A stretch of DNA of 33,608 nucleotides, taken from Bacteroidota bacterium. Lineage in GTDB: Bacteria > Bacteroidota > Bacteroidia > Sphingobacteriales > Sphingobacteriaceae. The DNA lies in contig JARKUW010000119.1 of NCBI GenBank assembly GCA_029851965.1, positions 1-33,608 of the forward strand, read 5' to 3'. Both the position numbers and the translations under genes were made by a program. The first letter of the stretch is position 1. Every line of letters begins with the position of its first letter. Below, piece by piece: positions 3,532-28,473 of this stretch. The notes beneath the pieces are model-generated. The model did no database searches. It was not told where the DNA came from and saw only the letters and a list, made by a program, of their open reading frames with translations.

Positions 3532-3999
3532 TTAGGAAAGCAGGTTTTGACGGACTAAAAATTCCAACTGTTTATTGGCCACAAGTAGTGCTTCGGTTAA
3601 TTCTTTATTTTCCTTTCTAAGCGCATATATTTCGTAGGCCTTCTCAATATTGATCCGAAGATCTTCATCCATCCATGGCTTCTGAATGTATTTATACACC
3701 TGACCTTTATTGATTGCATCAATAACCGCATTGATGTCTGCATATCCGGTGAGCAGTATTCGGATCGGATCCGGAAACTCTGGAATGATAGACTCCAGGA
3801 ATTCAATCCCTGTCATGACCGGCATCCGCTGATCTGTTATGATCACATGGATAAGTTCGGTTTCCAATACCTTCCTTCCCTCAACGGCAGATTCTGCTGT
3901 GAATATGTTGAATTTCCTTCTAAAGCCGGCTTTAAAGGAGTTTAGATTATGAACTTCATCATCCACGTAAAGCACATTTATTGAGGTATCGGAATTCAT
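3532..3999 (-). CDS. Stand-alone response regulator (REC plus coiled-coil tail, no output domain)
   Basis: INVLYVDDEVHNL...VIITDQRMPVMTGIEFLE...DPIRILLTGYADINAVIDAINKGQVYKYIQKPW: conserved acidic pair, phospho-acceptor Asp, Thr and Lys; ends after a short coiled coil. Confidence 0.9.
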   Translation of the reverse strand: MNSDTSINVLYVDDEVHNLNSFKAGFRRKFNIFTAESAVEGRKVLETELIHVIITDQRMPVMTGIEFLESIIPEFPDPIRILLTGYADINAVIDAINKGQVYKYIQKPWMDEDLRINIEKAYEIYALRKENKELTEALLVANKQLEFLVRQNLLS

Positions 4000-4121: not shown

Positions 4122-5288
4122 ATGGATAATATTAATTCTTTTATTAGCGCTACAGATCGTTCTGCAATTTACCGGCCAGTTTATTTTAGACCCTCGAACC
4201 CAGAAGATAATGCTTCATTAAACGCCTTATTAGAAGGCAATTCCGGCCTCGAAATCTATGATCAAATTTATAGCCAGCTTACGGAACTGATCAAACTAAA
4301 TAATCCTACAAGAAAGCTTACTGCTGAAGAATACACATCTTTGATTGCCCTTCATGTCAATGGAGAAATCAAAAATTACGGCGTATGGGTCTATTTCCCC
4401 TGGTCAAACAAGCTTGTACACATGCTGGATGAGCAGGAATTTGCGCAGGTGAGAACCAACCGGAACATCCACAAGATCACGCCCGCCCAGATTGAAACCC
4501 TAAAAACGAAAAAGATCGGTATCATCGGGCTTTCTGTTGGTCAGAGCGTCGCGTTGACCCTGGCAATGGAACGTACCTGCGGGGAACTCCGCCTCGCCGA
4601 CTTCGATGAGATCGAACTGAGCAACATGAACAGGATAAAGGTGACGGTCTACGACCTTGGTGTGAACAAGGCCATTGTTGCGGCCCGGCAGATCGCAGAG
4701 CTTGACCCCTTTATCAATGTGGTGTGCTATACGGAAGGCATCACAAATGAGAATATTGACGATTTCTTCACACTTGGTGGTAAACTGGATATTCTCGTAG
4801 AAGAATGCGACGGGATTGACATTAAAGTACTTAGCCGGATAAAAGCGAAATCCCTGGGCGTACCAGTGGTGATGGATACCAACGACAAAGGAATGCTGGA
4901 TGTAGAACGCTTTGATCTTGAACCGGAAAGACATATCTTCCATGGCAGCGTTAATGAGCTGGAAGAACTTAGTCCTGAAGAATTGAAATCAAAACTGAAT
5001 TCCCTGACAATTCCCGAGAAAGTAGGTTATCTTGCCCGCATCATCGGGTATGAAAATCTTTCGGAAGGAATGAAAATCTCCCTCGGAGAAATGAATAAAT
5101 CCATTGTCGGATGGCCGCAGCTTGCTTCTGCAGTGACCCTGGGTGGCGCAATGGTAACGGAGATCAGCAGAAAGATTTTGCTCGACCAATTCACGTCATC
5201 GGGAAGATTTTTCGTTGACTTCGATGAACTGTTTACAGAAGAATTCAATACAATCAGTTATATAGACGGAGACAATGATACACATTAG
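4122..5288 (+). CDS. E1-like/ThiF-family adenylyltransferase, Rv1355c-like
   Basis: KKIGIIGLSVGQSVALTLAMERTCGELRLADFDEIELSNMNRI is a ThiF/E1 Rossmann nucleotide-binding motif with the D...L.N.R signature; EECDGIDIKVLSRIKAKSLGVPVVMDTNDKGMLDVERFDLEPERHIFHG resembles the Rv1355c subfamily. About 130 aa N-terminal extension; no nitroreductase domain is encoded. Confidence 0.85.
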   Translation: MDNINSFISATDRSAIYRPVYFRPSNPEDNASLNALLEGNSGLEIYDQIYSQLTELIKLNNPTRKLTAEEYTSLIALHVNGEIKNYGVWVYFPWSNKLVHMLDEQEFAQVRTNRNIHKITPAQIETLKTKKIGIIGLSVGQSVALTLAMERTCGELRLADFDEIELSNMNRIKVTVYDLGVNKAIVAARQIAELDPFINVVCYTEGITNENIDDFFTLGGKLDILVEECDGIDIKVLSRIKAKSLGVPVVMDTNDKGMLDVERFDLEPERHIFHGSVNELEELSPEELKSKLNSLTIPEKVGYLARIIGYENLSEGMKISLGEMNKSIVGWPQLASAVTLGGAMVTEISRKILLDQFTSSGRFFVDFDELFTEEFNTISYIDGDNDTH

Positions 5289-5970
5289 AACATTTAGAGC
5301 TCCAGATGACCCTGAGGCTTGTGCAAAATTCATCACAGGTCATAAACGACTACTCGAAATCTACGGTATCTCTCAAATTACCTCCAACCGCCAGGACTGG
5401 GTCGATGATTACAACACCATCGTCATTCTTGTTGAAGACAAGGAAACTAAAATGGTATACGGTGGTGCACGGGTGCAAATGGTTTCCTCGCAATATCAAC
5501 TTCCAATTGAAACCGCTATTGGAAAATATGACCCCAAGATATTTGAAATGATTGAGGCAGACCAGGCCAGAGGTGGAACATGCGAAATCTGCGGATTGTG
5601 GAACTCCAGAGAGGTTGCTGGAATGGGCATCGGTAGCTACATTCTATCCAGGGTCGGCGTGGCAATATCTGCACAGCTCCCGGTAGCAAGCCTATTTGTA
5701 TTGTGCGCTCCTATTACCGTTAAAATGGGCATAAGGCTGGGATGCAGTGTCGAGACCACACTTGGTAATAACGGTTTATTCTATTACCCGAAAGAAGACC
5801 TCGTTGCAACGGTAATGCGTCTTAAGGACATCAACGACCTTAGCCTCGCCACCGAGACAGAACGGACAAAAATGCTCTCCCTTAGAGAAACGCCTCACCA
5901 GTTTAATGACGAAATCGGACCAAAAGGAACTTATAAGGTAGAATACAACATCAAAATTCCAAACTTGTAA
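5275..5970 (+). CDS. GNAT-fold N-acyltransferase, resembling AHL-synthase/N-acyl amino acid synthase-like enzymes
   Basis: 231 aa; GNAT motif-A-like REVAGMGIGSYILSRVGVAIS (acyl-CoA loop) preceded by CEICGLWNS, comparable in position to the 'E-x-S-R' beta strand of AHL-synthase-like acyltransferases. Overlaps the upstream ThiF gene by 14 nt. Confidence 0.7.
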   Translation: MIHIRTFRAPDDPEACAKFITGHKRLLEIYGISQITSNRQDWVDDYNTIVILVEDKETKMVYGGARVQMVSSQYQLPIETAIGKYDPKIFEMIEADQARGGTCEICGLWNSREVAGMGIGSYILSRVGVAISAQLPVASLFVLCAPITVKMGIRLGCSVETTLGNNGLFYYPKEDLVATVMRLKDINDLSLATETERTKMLSLRETPHQFNDEIGPKGTYKVEYNIKIPNL

Positions 5971-5977
5971 CGCCGAA

Positions 5978-8128
5978 ATGAAAATCAAAAAAGTATTCCT
6001 TTTACTTTTCTTATTGCTACATATTAGCGCTCTCACATTTGGATCCTCAACAGGCGACATCACATTCAGCGATGCTACAAAGCTCTCAAAACTTGAAAAA
6101 GGTGCCTCAATCTACATCGACCCTACCGGCAAAATGCCGTTTAAGCAGGTTCTTTCCCAGAAATTTACGGAAACCGACAGCAGCGTCCCCAATCTCGGCA
6201 TCACGTCAGCTACAATATGGGTGAAACTTGACATTCTGAACATGTCTGGTATTCAGGAACTCTTCCTGATGGTTCAGCAACCATCAATTGATCGCATAAG
6301 CCTCTTCGACCCCACCGATAACGGAACATGGACGGTTACAAACCTTGGTGAATATAAAAAGTACTCCAGCAGGATCATTGACAATCCAAATTTCATTTTC
6401 CCACTGAACATTAAGGTCGACTCGGTAAAGACCATTTACCTGCGCGTACAATCAAAAGACCAGATTCAGCTTCCCATTTTAATGGGTTCAGGGCCCTCCA
6501 TTCTGAACCAGAACCTGATTCAAAATCTTTTTTTCGGTATGTACATCGGTATCATCATCATTATGATGCTCTACAACTTGTTTGTCGCCTTTACCGTCCG
6601 GGATTCCAGTTACTACTACTACATTGTTTACATCTTGTTTGTAGGTCTGACACAATTTACCTTCCAGGGATTGTCTTACAAGTTCCTTTGGCCGGAAAGC
6701 CCCTGGATGGCAAACTACAGCTCTATACTGGTGCCCTTCTTCTCCGGATTATCTACCATAATCTTCCTGCAGAAGTTCCTGCAGACCAGAATTTACACGC
6801 CAAAACTTAATTACGGCATCCACGTGCTGTTCGTACTTTATTGCATTGCCTGTGTAGTCGGGATGCTCGGGTACTATGCGCCATCCATAGAATTGCTGCA
6901 GGTAACAGCACTATCAGGCTCATTGTACGTCCTGTATGTCGCCAATGTGATCCGGAGGAAAGGCTATCGCCCCGCGGTATTCTTCCTGATCGGATACTCC
7001 ATCTTTCTATCCTGCATCATCATTTTTGTCCTTCGGAATTTCAACATACTTCCGTTCAATAACTTCACCTCCTACATTCTTGAAATCGGCTCTGTACTGC
7101 AGATTACCTTGCTTTCCTTTGCACTGGCAGACAAGATAAACTTCTTCAGACTTGAAAATGAACAGAGTCAACGGCAGGCACTGGAGGTATCTAAAGAAAA
7201 TGAAAGACTCATTAAAGAGCAAAACATTGTCCTGGAAATTGAAGTCAACAAGCGGACTGAAGAACTCCAGAATTCAAACTTCACATTAAGTCATACATTA
7301 ACAGAACTGAAGGAGGCTCAATCTCAGTTGGTTGACGCAGAGAAGATGGCCGGACTCGGTCAGTTGACCGCCGGGATTGCCCATGAGATCAACAATCCAA
7401 TAAACTTTGTTACCTCAAACATCAAACCCCTGGAACTGGACATCAATGACCTCTATGATGTGATTCAAAAATATGAGGACCTGGATCCGGCCAAGGATAT
7501 CCAGCAGCAAATTGCGGAAGTCGAGAAATTCAAAAGACAGATCGATATTGATTTCATCAAAACAGAGATCAATTCTTTGCTTTCCGGAATTGGTGAGGGC
7601 GCCAAGCGGACTGCCGAGATCATCAGGAGCCTGAAGAACTTCAGCCGCCTTGATGAAAGTGATACTAAGCCGGTCGATTTAAATGAAGGGATCGAGTCTA
7701 CACTCGTGCTTCTTCGGAGCACGATCCCCGGCAACATGAAGGTCGTAAAAGACCTCAAAGAACTTCCGTTGGTGGAATGTTTACCAGGGAAGATCAATCA
7801 GGTGTTCATGAACCTCATAACCAATGCCATACAGGCAGTAAAGGTGAAGCAGCCACATCAACCAGAAGAGTTTCTCTACATTTCGACTTGGTCAGAAGAT
7901 GATCTGGTGAAAATCAGCATCAAAGATACAGGTCCTGGCATGACCGAGGAGATCAAACAGAAGATCTTTGAACCTTTCTTCACCACCAAGGAACCGGGAG
8001 AAGGTACAGGCCTCGGACTATCTATCGTGTTTACGATTGTTGAAAAACATAAAGGTAATATCGATATTGTCACAAAAGTAAACCACGGTACAGAATTTAT
8101 TATTACCTTGCCTGTAAAAAAGATCTAA
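5978..8128 (+). CDS. 7TMR-DISM-type membrane sensor histidine kinase
   Basis: Signal peptide MKIKKVFLLLFLLLHISALTFG; extracellular beta-rich domain (ATIWVKLDILN...ELFLMVQQPSIDRISLF, 7TMR-DISMED2-like); about 7 TM helices; coiled coil; H-box AGIAHEINNPINFV; HATPase motifs DTGPGM and GEGTGLGLSIV. Confidence 0.92.
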   Translation: MKIKKVFLLLFLLLHISALTFGSSTGDITFSDATKLSKLEKGASIYIDPTGKMPFKQVLSQKFTETDSSVPNLGITSATIWVKLDILNMSGIQELFLMVQQPSIDRISLFDPTDNGTWTVTNLGEYKKYSSRIIDNPNFIFPLNIKVDSVKTIYLRVQSKDQIQLPILMGSGPSILNQNLIQNLFFGMYIGIIIIMMLYNLFVAFTVRDSSYYYYIVYILFVGLTQFTFQGLSYKFLWPESPWMANYSSILVPFFSGLSTIIFLQKFLQTRIYTPKLNYGIHVLFVLYCIACVVGMLGYYAPSIELLQVTALSGSLYVLYVANVIRRKGYRPAVFFLIGYSIFLSCIIIFVLRNFNILPFNNFTSYILEIGSVLQITLLSFALADKINFFRLENEQSQRQALEVSKENERLIKEQNIVLEIEVNKRTEELQNSNFTLSHTLTELKEAQSQLVDAEKMAGLGQLTAGIAHEINNPINFVTSNIKPLELDINDLYDVIQKYEDLDPAKDIQQQIAEVEKFKRQIDIDFIKTEINSLLSGIGEGAKRTAEIIRSLKNFSRLDESDTKPVDLNEGIESTLVLLRSTIPGNMKVVKDLKELPLVECLPGKINQVFMNLITNAIQAVKVKQPHQPEEFLYISTWSEDDLVKISIKDTGPGMTEEIKQKIFEPFFTTKEPGEGTGLGLSIVFTIVEKHKGNIDIVTKVNHGTEFIITLPVKKI

Positions 8129-8131
8129 TAT

Positions 8132-9223
8132 ATGCCGCCGCTGCCTGTAAAAATACTATACATCGACGACGAAGAGAACAATCTCTTTGCTTTTAAAGCA
8201 ACTTTCCGGAGGCAGTATGAGATCTACACCGCAATTTCCGCGGCAGAAGGGATGAAAATTCTGGAAAATGTAGAAATGAATGTTGTCATTGCCGATCAGA
8301 AGATGCCCGGGATGACCGGTGTTCAATTCTTTAAGCACATCAAAGACAAATTCCCCGACCCCGTCCGCATTCTTTTAACCGGATATACCGATATCGAGGC
8401 ACTCGCTGATGCCATCAATCATGGAGATATCTACCGGTACATTACCAAACCATGGAGTGACCTGGAACTACACAACACCATAAAAAACGCTTACGATTCT
8501 TATAAGACCAAAATCGACCTTAGAAACAAGGTTGCCGAGCTGGAGAAAACCAATGATGAGCTGAATCGCTTTATTTACAGCATTTCTCATGAACTCAGGG
8601 CACCCCTGGTATCGGTCATCGGTATCGTAAATCTGGTTAAAATGGAGGAATTGTACGAGTCAAGCGGTGAGTACTGGAGCCTCATTGAAACCTGTTCCAA
8701 TAAACTCGACTACTATATCCAAAAAACGCTTCAATATTATAAGAACAACAAAACAGCCGCAGAAAACACGTCAGTCGACTTTTCTAAGTTGATTGCCGAA
8801 CTGATCAGCCTATATTCCTATACAGATAAGGAAACTAAATTTAATATCGATATCGATCAAAGCCAGGAATTTATTGGAGATGCCTTCCGTATAGAAGTTA
8901 TTTTAGGTAATCTGATCAACAACGCAATAAAATATCAAAAGGCCACAGAGGTAAACAAGAAAGTAAATATCGAGGTTAAGGTAAACCCAATGAACGCCGA
9001 AATCTCTATCAGTGACAATGGAATGGGGATCCTTAACGAACACCTGGAGAAGATCTTTACTCAATTTTTCAAGAGTAAGAATCACCACGGAAGTGGCCTT
9101 GGCTTGTTTATTGTAAAGGAAGCACTAAACAAAATCAACGGTAGAATATCTGTAAGTTCAGACCTTCATGTAGGTACAACTTTTAAAATCTCAATTCCGA
9201 ATGCTAGAGCACACTCCGAGTAA
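8132..9223 (+). CDS. Hybrid response regulator / histidine kinase (REC-HisKA-HATPase_c)
   Basis: N-terminal REC KILYIDDEENNL...VVIADQKMPGMTG...ILLTGYTD...ITKPW; H-box FIYSISHELRAPLVSVIG; ATPase motifs DNGMGI and HGSGLGLFIVKEA. Confidence 0.93.
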   Translation: MPPLPVKILYIDDEENNLFAFKATFRRQYEIYTAISAAEGMKILENVEMNVVIADQKMPGMTGVQFFKHIKDKFPDPVRILLTGYTDIEALADAINHGDIYRYITKPWSDLELHNTIKNAYDSYKTKIDLRNKVAELEKTNDELNRFIYSISHELRAPLVSVIGIVNLVKMEELYESSGEYWSLIETCSNKLDYYIQKTLQYYKNNKTAAENTSVDFSKLIAELISLYSYTDKETKFNIDIDQSQEFIGDAFRIEVILGNLINNAIKYQKATEVNKKVNIEVKVNPMNAEISISDNGMGILNEHLEKIFTQFFKSKNHHGSGLGLFIVKEALNKINGRISVSSDLHVGTTFKISIPNARAHSE

Positions 9224-9611
9224 CAATAAGGTAATGCTTATTGATGATAATGCGATTGATCTGAAAATCAATTCCAAGATCATTTCCATTACCGGTCATT
9301 TTGAACAGGTAATTACCTGTTTGTCTGCTGAGTCTGCCTTAGCACATCTGCACGGCTGTCTCGATGCATCATTTCCGTTCCCGGAACTCATTCTTCTCGA
9401 CATTCAAATGCCGGAAATGAGCGGCTTCGAATTTTTGGAACAGTACAAACGCTTCCCTGACATATATAAGTCACAATGTACAATAGCCATGTTGTCTTCA
9501 ACACTTGACTTTGGTGACATCAAACGTGCAGAGGCAAATGTATACGTAGCCAAGCTGTTGAAAAAACCCTTGAATCCAGCGGATCTACAAGCACTTATAG
9601 CGAAGCTGTAG
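9201..9611 (+). CDS. Single-domain response regulator (REC)
   Basis: VMLIDDNAIDLKINSKII...ELILLDIQMPEMSGFEFLEQY...LLKKPLNPADLQALI. Overlaps the upstream hybrid kinase by 23 nt; an in-frame ATG at 9234 is an alternative start. Confidence 0.9.
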   Translation: MLEHTPSNNKVMLIDDNAIDLKINSKIISITGHFEQVITCLSAESALAHLHGCLDASFPFPELILLDIQMPEMSGFEFLEQYKRFPDIYKSQCTIAMLSSTLDFGDIKRAEANVYVAKLLKKPLNPADLQALIAKL

Positions 9612-25326: not shown

Positions 25327-26310
25327 ATGCTTGCAGAAAGACTTCAAAGTGCACATCTAAATAACCCGAAACCGAAAATACTTGTTATAGGTGACCTGAT
25401 GCTTGACCACTATATTTTTGGTTCGGCAACACGGCTTTCCCCGGAAGCGCCTGTCCCTGTAGTAAACGTTGAGAGAGAAGATAGAATAATCGGCGGAGCC
25501 GCAAATGTAGCTAGTAATCTGATAGACTTAGGTGCTCATGTTTTTCTGGCTGGGCTGACCGGCGACGATATTGCTGCTGAAGAAATTGCAGCCATCTTAA
25601 AGACGAAGGAAATAGACACCAGCCGGATTATCAGGGATGCGGAACGGTCCACCACCGTGAAAACAAGGATTATAGCATCAAATCACCAGATCGTTAGAAT
25701 AGACAGAGAAGACATTGCTGATATTTCAGAAGCACTGGAAGATGAGTTTTTTAAAGCGCTTGTTCCTTGTATGGAAAAGAGCGACCTCGTTATCCTATCC
25801 GACTACAACAAAGGATTGCTCACACCAACCCTGTCGCAGCGCATTATCGAACATTGCACTACATCCGGCAAACGGATATTTGTTGATCCCAAAGGTCTTG
25901 ACTACGCGAAGTACAAAGGTGCTTTCATCATCAAGCCAAACCGGAAGGAACTTGCGGACGCTGCAAAGATGGACAAGATCCAAACGGAAAACGATCTGGT
26001 GCGGGCAGCCCGGATTGTCTTACACCTGACGGAGGCCAGTTATCTGATCGTTACCCTTTCTGAAGCCGGAATTGCGATCATCACCCAGGAGGACTGTAAA
26101 ATCCTTCCCGTAGTGGCTACAAAAGTATATGATGTTACGGGCGCTGGTGATACCGTCATGGCTACATTGGCCTATGGTATGGCGCTGGGCTTTTCTATTG
26201 AAGAGGCATGTACGCTGTCCAATTACGCCGCTTCGATCGTGATCAAGCATATTGGTAGTGCCACGACAAACGTAGCAGATATCGTTAAGGCAATGAACAA
26301 GCAACATTGA
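25327..26310 (+). CDS. rfaE1: D-glycero-D-manno-heptose-7-phosphate kinase (RfaE1/HldA-like, PfkB family)
   Basis: ILVIGDLMLDHYIFGSATRLSPEAPVPVVNVEREDRIIGGAANVASNLIDLGA; VYDVTGAGDTVMATLAYGMALG. Confidence 0.92.
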   Translation: MLAERLQSAHLNNPKPKILVIGDLMLDHYIFGSATRLSPEAPVPVVNVEREDRIIGGAANVASNLIDLGAHVFLAGLTGDDIAAEEIAAILKTKEIDTSRIIRDAERSTTVKTRIIASNHQIVRIDREDIADISEALEDEFFKALVPCMEKSDLVILSDYNKGLLTPTLSQRIIEHCTTSGKRIFVDPKGLDYAKYKGAFIIKPNRKELADAAKMDKIQTENDLVRAARIVLHLTEASYLIVTLSEAGIAIITQEDCKILPVVATKVYDVTGAGDTVMATLAYGMALGFSIEEACTLSNYAASIVIKHIGSATTNVADIVKAMNKQH

Positions 26311-26410
26311 GGCAGTAGCACAGTTTGGCCCCTACGTTCCTGAAAAAAAGCCTCGTAGATGATGGGTGAGAAAAAACAGTAATAATCTTTTTAAAATAGA
26401 ATCATTAAAT

Positions 26411-26424
26411 AATTTCCGGAAATT
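26411..26424. repeat. Perfect 14-bp palindrome upstream of gmhA
   Basis: AATTTCCGGAAATT, 10 bp upstream of the gmhA ATG at 26434. Confidence 0.6.
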
Positions 26425-26433
26425 GTACTACTT

Positions 26434-26988
26434 ATGGTATTAGAAGAATTAGTTCAACATAGAAACACCATTGACACGCTGATTAAAGGGCTCGTATCAG
26501 ATATTGAAACAGGCTGTAAAATGGTCACTGACGTACTTACTGCCGGAGGAAAAGTATTGATCGCCGGTAACGGTGGCAGCGCCGCAGATGCACAGCATAT
26601 CGCTGCCGAACTGACGGGCAGGTACGTTAAGGAGCGGGTGGCCCTGCCTGCAATTGCACTGACTGTCGATACCTCTGCTCTAACGGCCATAAGCAACGAC
26701 TACGGCTTTAAAAAGGTTTTTTCAAGGCAGCTTGCCGCACTTGCAAGGCATGATGACCTCTTTATAGCCATTTCGACCAGTGGAAACAGTGAAAATGTTA
26801 TCGATGCTTTGCACACCGCTAAAGAGTTAAATTGCAAAACGCTTGGTTTATCAGGAAGAGACGGCGGACAAATGAACAATTTATGTGATCTGAACATCGT
26901 TGTAGATAGCGACACTACTGCACGAATTCAGGAAATGCATATTCTCATTGGACACATCTTCTGCAAAGCCGTAGACGAGATTTTTTAA
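26434..26988 (+). CDS. gmhA: D-sedoheptulose 7-phosphate isomerase
   Basis: SIS domain: GGKVLIAGNGGSAADAQHIAAELTGRYVKERVALPAIALTVDTSALTAISNDYGF; AISTSGNSENVI. Confidence 0.95.
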   Translation: MVLEELVQHRNTIDTLIKGLVSDIETGCKMVTDVLTAGGKVLIAGNGGSAADAQHIAAELTGRYVKERVALPAIALTVDTSALTAISNDYGFKKVFSRQLAALARHDDLFIAISTSGNSENVIDALHTAKELNCKTLGLSGRDGGQMNNLCDLNIVVDSDTTARIQEMHILIGHIFCKAVDEIF

Positions 26989-26997
26989 GCACATAAA

Positions 26998-27489
26998 ATG
27001 AACGCACATACTACGTTGGCACACAAGATCTTTTCCTTACCTGAACTGGCTACCCAGGTTCAAAAGTGGAAGGCTGAAGGAAGGAAGATTGTCTTTACCA
27101 ATGGTTGTTTTGATCTGCTTCATGCAGGCCATATCGCCTATCTGACCGAAGCAGCAAACCTGGGAGATGTGCTGATTGTCGGACTGAACAGTGATCAGTC
27201 CGTTCAAAGAATCAAAGGCCCGGAACGGCCCGTTAATGACGAAAACACCAGGTCGGCTGTACTCGCAGGGATGTTCTTCATTGATGCTATTGTATTCTTT
27301 AGTGACGATACTCCTTTGGAGCTCATCAAAGCGCTTATGCCGGATGTACTGGTTAAAGGCGGCGACTATGAGATCGACCAGATTGTAGGTGCAAGGGAGG
27401 TACTAGACAATGGAGGGCGTGTTAAAGTGCTTTCTTTTTTACCGGGATACTCATCCACATCCATCATCGAAAAAATAAGGAGAGTTTAA
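26998..27489 (+). CDS. rfaE2: D-glycero-beta-D-manno-heptose 1-phosphate adenylyltransferase
   Basis: KIVFTNGCFDLLHAGHIAYLTEAANLGDVLIVGLNSDQSVQRIKGPERPVNDENTRSAVLAGMFFIDAIV; GYSSTSIIEKI. Confidence 0.94.
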   Translation: MNAHTTLAHKIFSLPELATQVQKWKAEGRKIVFTNGCFDLLHAGHIAYLTEAANLGDVLIVGLNSDQSVQRIKGPERPVNDENTRSAVLAGMFFIDAIVFFSDDTPLELIKALMPDVLVKGGDYEIDQIVGAREVLDNGGRVKVLSFLPGYSSTSIIEKIRRV

Positions 27490-27492
27490 GAA

Positions 27493-28473
27493 TTGAAAGC
27501 GCCTAAGAAGATACTGGTCATTCGTTTCAGCTCCATGGGCGATATTATCTATACCACGCCGGTGATCCGTTGCCTAAAAGAACAACTTCCAGGTACTGAA
27601 ATCCACTTTTTAACGAAGGAGCAGTTTAAATACATATACCAGCAAAACCCTTACCTCACGAAGCTTCACTTCCTGAAGCCGACATTGAAAGAGACGATAT
27701 CGGATATCAAAGCCGAAGGGTTCGATCTCATCATCGACCTACACAACAATCTTAGGACGACCCTCATCAAAATAGCCACGCAGATTCCGTCTTCAACGTA
27801 CAGAAAGGACGCAATACGGAAATGGCTCGCGCTCAAATTTAAGTGGCACACGCTTTTCGCTAAAGATCACCTGGTGGATCGCTATATGGAAACCGTAAAA
27901 TTCCTTGGTGTAGTAAATGACGATAAACCGATAGACTATTACATCTCCGGAAACTACAAGTTATCCGATGTGCTGCCTGAAACACATTTAAACGGCTATA
28001 TCGGGTTTGTCATTGGTGCCACACACAATACGAAGAGAATGCCGAATGAGAAAATCATTGACATCTGCAAAGGCATTGCAGGTCCGATAGTGTTGCTCGG
28101 TGGAACAGATGTTAAAAATAATGCTGAGGAGATTGCCAGGGCAGTCGGTAACCGCGTCTACTCTACCTGTGGAGTCACAAATCTGGATCAGTCTGTATTT
28201 GTTGCGTCAAAGGCAAGGAAAATCATAGGTTTCGACACTGGATTGACGCATATTGCGGAAGCCTTCGACCTGCCGATTGCATCTGTCTGGGGCAGTACCA
28301 CACCAGATCTGCTGGGGGTGTTTCCATATAAGGTCAGGGATTCCATTGTGGTAGGCATCGACCTCCCCTGCCGTCCATGTTCCAAGTTCGGACAGGAAAG
28401 ATGTCCGCTCGGGCATTTCAAATGTATGAAAAACATTCCCAACCAGACAATTGTTGACTTTGCTAACGATTAA
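27493..28473 (+). CDS. Glycosyltransferase family 9 (ADP-heptose:LPS heptosyltransferase-like)
   Basis: KILVIRFSSMGDIIYTTPVIRCLKEQLPGTEIHFLTKEQF; FDTGLTHIAEAFDLPIASVWGSTTPDLLGVFPY. ORF opens with TTG at 27493. Confidence 0.92.
   Translation: MKAPKKILVIRFSSMGDIIYTTPVIRCLKEQLPGTEIHFLTKEQFKYIYQQNPYLTKLHFLKPTLKETISDIKAEGFDLIIDLHNNLRTTLIKIATQIPSSTYRKDAIRKWLALKFKWHTLFAKDHLVDRYMETVKFLGVVNDDKPIDYYISGNYKLSDVLPETHLNGYIGFVIGATHNTKRMPNEKIIDICKGIAGPIVLLGGTDVKNNAEEIARAVGNRVYSTCGVTNLDQSVFVASKARKIIGFDTGLTHIAEAFDLPIASVWGSTTPDLLGVFPYKVRDSIVVGIDLPCRPCSKFGQERCPLGHFKCMKNIPNQTIVDFAND

Follow-up and report, generated by a model that had tools for sequence, protein, structure and literature searches.

The window (the whole stretch of 33,608 nucleotides that was analysed) carries the following genes at the locus under study, listed by position, strand and content:

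3532–3999, minus strand: divergent stand-alone receiver of 155 aa, upstream of the cassette (Pfam Response_reg)
4122–5288, plus strand: ThiF/E1-like adenylyltransferase-cyclase of the Rv1355c (TrzS) type without nitroreductase domain, 388 aa (homology by profile and structure comparison)
5275–5970, plus strand: predicted GNAT-fold acyltransferase resembling FeeM and acyl-homoserine lactone (AHL) synthases, 231 aa (predicted structure)
5978–8128, plus strand: 7TMR-DISM histidine kinase with DISMED2 ectodomain, 7TM region and HATPase (Pfam)
8132–9223, plus strand: receiver-histidine kinase hybrid, 363 aa (Pfam)
9201–9611, plus strand: small receiver of 136 aa, overlapping the hybrid gene by 23 nt (Pfam)

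The ThiF and acyltransferase genes overlap by 14 nt, and the ThiF stop codon (5286–5288) lies inside the acyltransferase gene; the reading frames had been placed correctly in a preliminary description made from the letters of the window. The tight coupling of ThiF to a GNAT-fold enzyme proposed there was borne out by this overlap, which recurs, along with the 388-aa ThiF length, in five further members of the genus (loci L028–L032). An acyltransferase gene and a ThiF gene stand side by side in the Oxz, Tyz and Trz clusters too, and the arrangement is recurrent. The operon runs past the pair into the 7TMR-DISM kinase, the receiver-kinase hybrid and the receiver (5978–9611), which the preliminary description had left out. 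In the kinase the domains 7TMR-DISM_7TM (172 bits), 7TMR-DISMED2 (107 bits) and HATPase_c (86 bits) were all matched above the Pfam cut-offs, and no recognised DNA-binding output domain was found by Pfam scan in any cassette gene. A receiver gene similar to that at 3532–3999 was found upstream in most cassette loci. Elsewhere in the window, a group of ADP-heptose-like genes (kinase, isomerase, nucleotidyltransferase and glycosyltransferase) was read by eye from the starts of the open reading frames at 25327–28473.

The window ThiF was matched by the NCBIfam profile NF005901 ('Rv1355c family protein') with 457 bits (E = 1e-136) at profile positions 5–341 of 722; this sole strong full-length family match, restricted to the ThiF half, confirmed the Rv1355c-type E1 core assigned to the protein earlier. 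The fused flavin oxidase (nitroreductase) domain is truly missing, as had been noted, and the score stays below the 476-bit cut-off of the profile because that half is absent. Since the protein ends after the ThiF half and scores below the cut-off, it is a TrzS-type cyclase homologue and not a TrzS. Its structural model (pLDDT 91) was matched to AclA (9egb, Z 26.0), E. coli ThiF (1zfn, Z 23.2) and MoeB (Z 22.4), and TcdA was the best profile match among solved structures; no relevant paper was found on the product of AclA, the best structural match. TcdA (cyclic t6A synthase) is likewise an E1-like enzyme; it acts on tRNA, closing a ring at an amino acid carboxylate with ATP and taking no protein carrier as substrate. 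The ATP-site residues, whose loss had been named earlier as one outcome that would refute the proposal, were intact: D160, D162, N168, N170, R171, K183 and D230 were invariant in 94 of 94 ThiF domains, among them all 38 without nitroreductase. Two loci (L027 and L089) were excluded from the ThiF tree and from this count because a contig end cuts their ThiF. D230 was aligned with the TcdA aspartate; the equivalent residue lies at 199–202 in three plasmid homologues, and the adenylation-motif aspartate of M. smegmatis TrzS is D217. The actinobacterial plasmid homologues are about 40–45% identical to the window ThiF. According to the part of PMC12856293 that was available, Rv1355c is TrzS, which acts as a cyclase-desaturase in the synthesis of acyl-oxazolones and together with the acyltransferase TrzA yields acyl-tryptazolones; its ThiF domain cyclises N-acyl-tryptophan with ATP and the flavin domain then desaturates the product. 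Rv1355c thus has a characterised role and is no longer an orphan. The preliminary description had assigned no function to the pair; the published work on TrzAS and TyzACB provides one. From its sequence, the window ThiF is likely to activate the carboxyl group of an N-acyl amino acid and to cyclise it.

For the acyltransferase no Pfam match was obtained up to E 0.01, including the Pfam FeeM family (PF21926), and no NCBIfam match at the thresholds used; its predicted GNAT nature is taken from the structural model (pLDDT 92). The first solved-structure match of that model was FeeM, itself an N-acyl amino acid synthase (E = 4.5e-8; Z 17.0, 2.6 Å over 172 residues). FeeM leads the next entry by 0.7 Z only, and further GNATs, together with the AHL synthases RpaI, LasI and BjaI, score at most about two Z units lower. 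FeeM and BjaI were also the nearest structures of TyzA in its authors' own search (PMC10404671, available part). In sequence, there was a weak link to an acyltransferase-like gene next to a TrzS homologue of Rhodococcus (HMMER E = 1.5e-5, with very few open reading frames searched; hhalign probability 11.9%), so that by sequence homology to TrzA is no more than tentative. Because of this weak link, its family membership is argued from fold and context. A search of plasmids with the acyltransferase gave no match, and sequence searches of the PDB returned nothing convincing. Its fold and neighbourhood suggest that it is an N-acyl amino acid synthase.

Related pairs were found in Actinomycetota. 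In Streptomyces sp. NBC_01471 (L095) a short ThiF of the window type adjoins a canonical GNAT with a 4-nt overlap, and on a plasmid of Streptomyces sp. NBC_01431 (L096:4164–6032) a nitroreductase-less ThiF is fused to an N-terminal domain. The search for ThiF-GNAT fusions proposed in the preliminary description was successful in part: the fusion exists, but its N-terminal half is GNAT-like only below threshold (GNAT and FeeM Pfam matches) and was not matched by the acyltransferase profile of the window. These two loci support direct transfer from one such enzyme to the other, even though their acyltransferase halves differ from that of the window. Downstream of the fusion gene lies a gene for a ketoacyl-ACP synthase III.

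In a phylum sample of 395 genomes the acyltransferase was present in 13. Eleven genomes, all within these 13, had a strong Rv1355c-type ThiF (at least 140 bits), and in each of them the two genes are adjacent (in G164 the contig start truncates the ThiF). Co-occurrence, the absence of which had been named at the outset as telling against the pair, was strong. The division between strong and weak ThiF is clear because the next match confined to the ThiF half scored 63 bits; an NF005901-type match of any kind was found in 335 of the 395 genomes, the remainder of these being weak and due to other ThiF-like or nitroreductase-like proteins. Chance pairing was rejected (hypergeometric 1e-19 for 11 within 13 of 395, uncorrected for relatedness). 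In the two genomes with the acyltransferase and no ThiF (G438 and G181) a 213-aa protein is encoded between acyltransferase and kinase instead; that of G438, the one scanned, is a member of the isoprenylcysteine carboxyl methyltransferase (ICMT) family. Among 59 relatives, the window genome counted, the acyltransferase was found in 23.

For a wider survey, 84,980 species genomes were scanned with the acyltransferase profile, no neighbour being required, and of the 359 relatives obtained the best 80 were kept, the choice being based on how similar the acyltransferase was and on one peptide pattern; with 35 loci fetched from genomes and the window itself this gave 116 loci. Near-duplicates (for example L033/L147, L137/L139, L113/L117 and L121/L122) were removed only for the co-variation test (105 to 88 loci). 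A 7TMR-DISM kinase was encoded on the acyltransferase strand in 113 of the 116 loci, 80 of which are the best of 359, and the three exceptions are truncated by the end of their contig, which falls within the kinase in L109 and L172 and just after the acyltransferase in L144. The gap between kinase and acyltransferase was at most 50 nt in 54 of the 113 loci, and one slot gene lay between them in 45; ThiF comes before or after the acyltransferase, and the kinase after both. The slot of the tailoring enzyme was filled variously. Among the best 80 of 359 loci it held a ThiF-nitroreductase fusion in 38, ThiF alone in 25, a class I methyltransferase in six, an FAD_binding_4 oxidase in five (two of them scanned) and an ICMT-like protein in four; one locus (L157) had none and one (L169) begins inside a nitroreductase. 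The FAD_binding_4-type oxidases (536–568 aa; L110, L111, L112, L114 and L124) take the place of ThiF between acyltransferase and kinase. The cassette accordingly consists of the acyltransferase, one interchangeable tailoring enzyme, the 7TMR-DISM kinase, the receiver-kinase hybrid and usually small receivers. On this point the preliminary description, which had seen a core module of two enzymes, has to be revised: the receptor kinase is the invariant partner of the acyltransferase and ThiF is the replaceable part. Cassettes occur in the cultured genera Pedobacter, Chitinophaga and Mucilaginibacter. At L123:7741–9705 a tandem pair of acyltransferase genes was observed within one cassette. Locus L121, titled as a metagenome-assembled genome of Azovibrio restrictus (Pseudomonadota), carries a cassette of Bacteroidota type that is almost the same as that of L122, and is probably mis-binned.

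The sensor half of the window kinase was compared with the 59 relatives. The 23 best matches, down to 172 bits, were cassette kinases or a kinase at a contig start (G028), and the first clear kinase from a genome without the acyltransferase (G049) followed at 150 bits, level with the weaker cassette kinases. Over 88 loci, acyltransferase distances tracked those of the ectodomain (partial r 0.34) and of the 7TM region (0.375), given kinase and hybrid (both p 0.001), and did not track the hybrid (partial r 0.037, p 0.24). The co-variation is not confined to the sensor, because the kinase domain was tracked too (partial r 0.277, p 0.001). The effect of slot class was analysed in the 105 of 116 loci that belonged to one of five slot classes and had an acyltransferase, a kinase above 650 aa and a hybrid above 330 aa; it was not significant for the ectodomain (p 0.58) and small for the 7TM region (p 0.002), and with this mixed result a class-dependent divergence of the receptor was not adopted. 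The co-variation supports a receptor role in part. Shared descent of one operon can produce some of it, and the linkage taken by itself also fits a kinase that controls the pathway upon another stimulus.

The nitroreductase is lacking in 38 of the 94 ThiF domains, and the short and long states change at least seven times on the ThiF tree, three of these changes being forced by well supported branches. A nitroreductase-family desaturase was not found at the window locus, nor in trans in 11 of the 13 genomes searched; the exceptions were a second cassette of the window genome itself and a weak match in G023 (E = 7e-9). Given the frequency of the short form, its repeated changes on the tree and these 11 genomes, the missing domain is not a local accident.

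The reading we favour, and regard as probable, is that the window carries a synthase-receptor cassette in which the acyltransferase N-acylates an amino acid, ThiF cyclises the product and the resulting saturated molecule is sensed by the 7TMR-DISM kinase of the operon. For the enzyme roles there is support from homology, fold and context, and the signalling role is deduced from the near-universal linkage and from the co-variation of acyltransferase and sensor sequences. The acyltransferase, judged by fold and neighbourhood, would take acyl-CoA or acyl-ACP as donor and acylate the amino acid at its amino group. Going by homology, the intact ATP-site residues and the published work on TrzS, ThiF would then adenylate the carboxylate of the N-acyl amino acid, and ring closure through the amide oxygen would give a five-membered 5(4H)-oxazolone (azlactone), the reaction that TrzS carries out first. 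Because there is no nitroreductase at the locus, the product would keep a saturated alpha-beta bond, in which it would differ from tyrazolones and tryptazolones. The capped, uncharged molecule would leave the cell and be read by the kinase, from which phosphate would pass to the hybrid as well as to the stand-alone receivers. In other cassettes the cyclisation would be replaced by the action of the carboxyl-methyltransferase-like membrane protein, another methyltransferase or the flavin oxidase, or extended by desaturation where a ThiF-nitroreductase fusion is present, so that the signal would change while synthase and receptor stay. Saturated azlactones are prone to hydrolysis, and the real product may therefore be an open or trapped derivative. 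In the available part of PMC12856293, the saturated cyclised species was made by TrzS in vitro when the desaturase was disabled or oxygen was limited, and none was detected in vivo.

Two alternatives retain some weight. The enzymes may make a lipid of the acyl-oxazolone or N-acyl amino acid type with a function in envelope or defence, the kinase being a regulator that answers stress and does not sense the product. Lipid and antimicrobial precedents exist in tyrazolones, stieleriacines and kyonggic acids (available parts of PMC10404671, PMC12479983 and PMC12856293), and antibiotics induced oxazolones in Proteobacteria (PMC12856293, available part). We nevertheless consider this unlikely, since the kinase is kept in nearly all loci regardless of the tailoring enzyme, an exclusivity that the regulator of a lipid pathway would not need, and since the acyltransferase varies together with the sensor even after kinase and hybrid are allowed for. 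It is improbable to a similar degree that the activated N-acyl aminoacyl-AMP escapes cyclisation and is transferred to a different nucleophile, be it an amine, a thiol, a lipid or a protein, to give an amide, thioester or ester. E1-like enzymes widely do this, MccB, MoeB and ThiF are among the fold matches of the ThiF model, and a desaturase that would stabilise the ring is lacking at the locus and in the 11 genomes mentioned; yet cyclisation is what the closest homologue with a characterised activity performs, the locus showed no recognisable gene for a carrier or acceptor, and C229, the residue beside the ATP-site aspartate, is kept in 45 of 45 domains while a CxxC zinc-type motif occurs in just 1 of 96.

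That the short ThiF is a decaying copy of a full fusion carried elsewhere in the same genome is very doubtful. The window genome does hold a second cassette (L027, G000:C252:1–4990) with a ThiF-nitroreductase fusion cut by the contig end, an acyltransferase, a kinase and a hybrid, 40–52% identical to the window cassette in acyltransferase, ThiF and kinase and 86% in the part of the hybrid present. Against decay stand the conservation of the 388-aa form (74–77% identity) in the five related genomes, beside their only acyltransferase match, and the frequency and repeated changes of the short form described above; a pseudogene was rejected on the strength of the intact catalytic columns. Classical ubiquitin-like activation or sulfur transfer of the MoeB/ThiF type, for which the E1 fold and the ATP-site residues could be cited, is the least credible of all and was dismissed, in agreement with the earlier remark that a carrier or JAB partner is lacking: no ThiS, MoaD or ubiquitin-like carrier and no JAB gene lies at the locus, the only Pfam ThiS match of the genome is on contig C50 and none is in the window, the genome (about 79% complete) has no Prok-JAB match, the window has no GG-ending open reading frame of 40–130 aa, and the constant neighbours are the acyltransferase and the kinase instead.

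In AHL systems with a membrane kinase, a LuxI-type synthase is paired with a receptor encoded beside it. The window shares with these pairs the GNAT-like synthase fold and the neighbouring receptor; it differs in that its substrate and ring chemistry are predicted to be different and its receptor is a 7TMR-DISM kinase. TrzA-TrzS (Rv1356c-Rv1355c; tryptazolones; Mycobacterium and Rhodococcus) likewise combines a ThiF cyclase of the same family with an adjacent acyltransferase, whereas the window has no nitroreductase, its acyltransferase is only weakly alike in sequence and its operon has a dedicated receptor kinase. N-acylation and ThiF cyclisation are also common to the window and the tyrazolone systems TyzACB (M. 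tuberculosis) and OxzAB (Pseudoalteromonas rubra), in which TyzA, according to its authors, folds like FeeM and BjaI; these systems include a desaturase and the window locus does not. TyzB falls in a ThiF subcluster different from that of TrzS (PMC12856293, available part). In the NasY-ThiF-nitroreductase clusters (stieleriacines, thalassotalic and kyonggic acids) an acyl amino acid synthase accompanies ThiF, as in the window, but a nitroreductase is present and, in the available part of PMC12479983, no oxazolone was seen. The enzyme pair is a variant of oxazolone biosynthesis that lacks the desaturase. Mention of a kinase, a sensor or a two-component system was not found in the available text of PMC12856293, PMC10404671 and PMC12479983, and a search covering largely non-subscription papers, preprints excluded, returned nothing that joins oxazolone-type genes to a 7TMR-DISM receptor. 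Neither the near-exclusive tie to such a kinase nor the exchangeable tailoring slot was found in the literature searched.

A broader proposal is offered tentatively, at slightly less than even confidence: the cassettes may represent a widespread, unrecognised class of signalling systems in Bacteroidota, in which N-acyl amino acid synthase and 7TMR-DISM receptor are constant and an exchangeable tailoring enzyme sets the dialect, the window signal being a short-lived and saturated azlactone that the receptor may sense by becoming acylated. What acyl-oxazolones do in the physiology of bacteria is named as a major unresolved question in the available part of PMC12856293, where signalling is suggested from structural likeness. 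The cassettes would offer candidate oxazolone receptors inside the same operon, in cultured genera. To our knowledge, the ligands of 7TMR-DISM receptors are mostly unknown, and we know of few small-molecule quorum signals in Bacteroidota; the cassettes would give ligands to this receptor class, and the exchange of tailoring enzymes within an otherwise fixed operon would make specificity testable through gene swaps.
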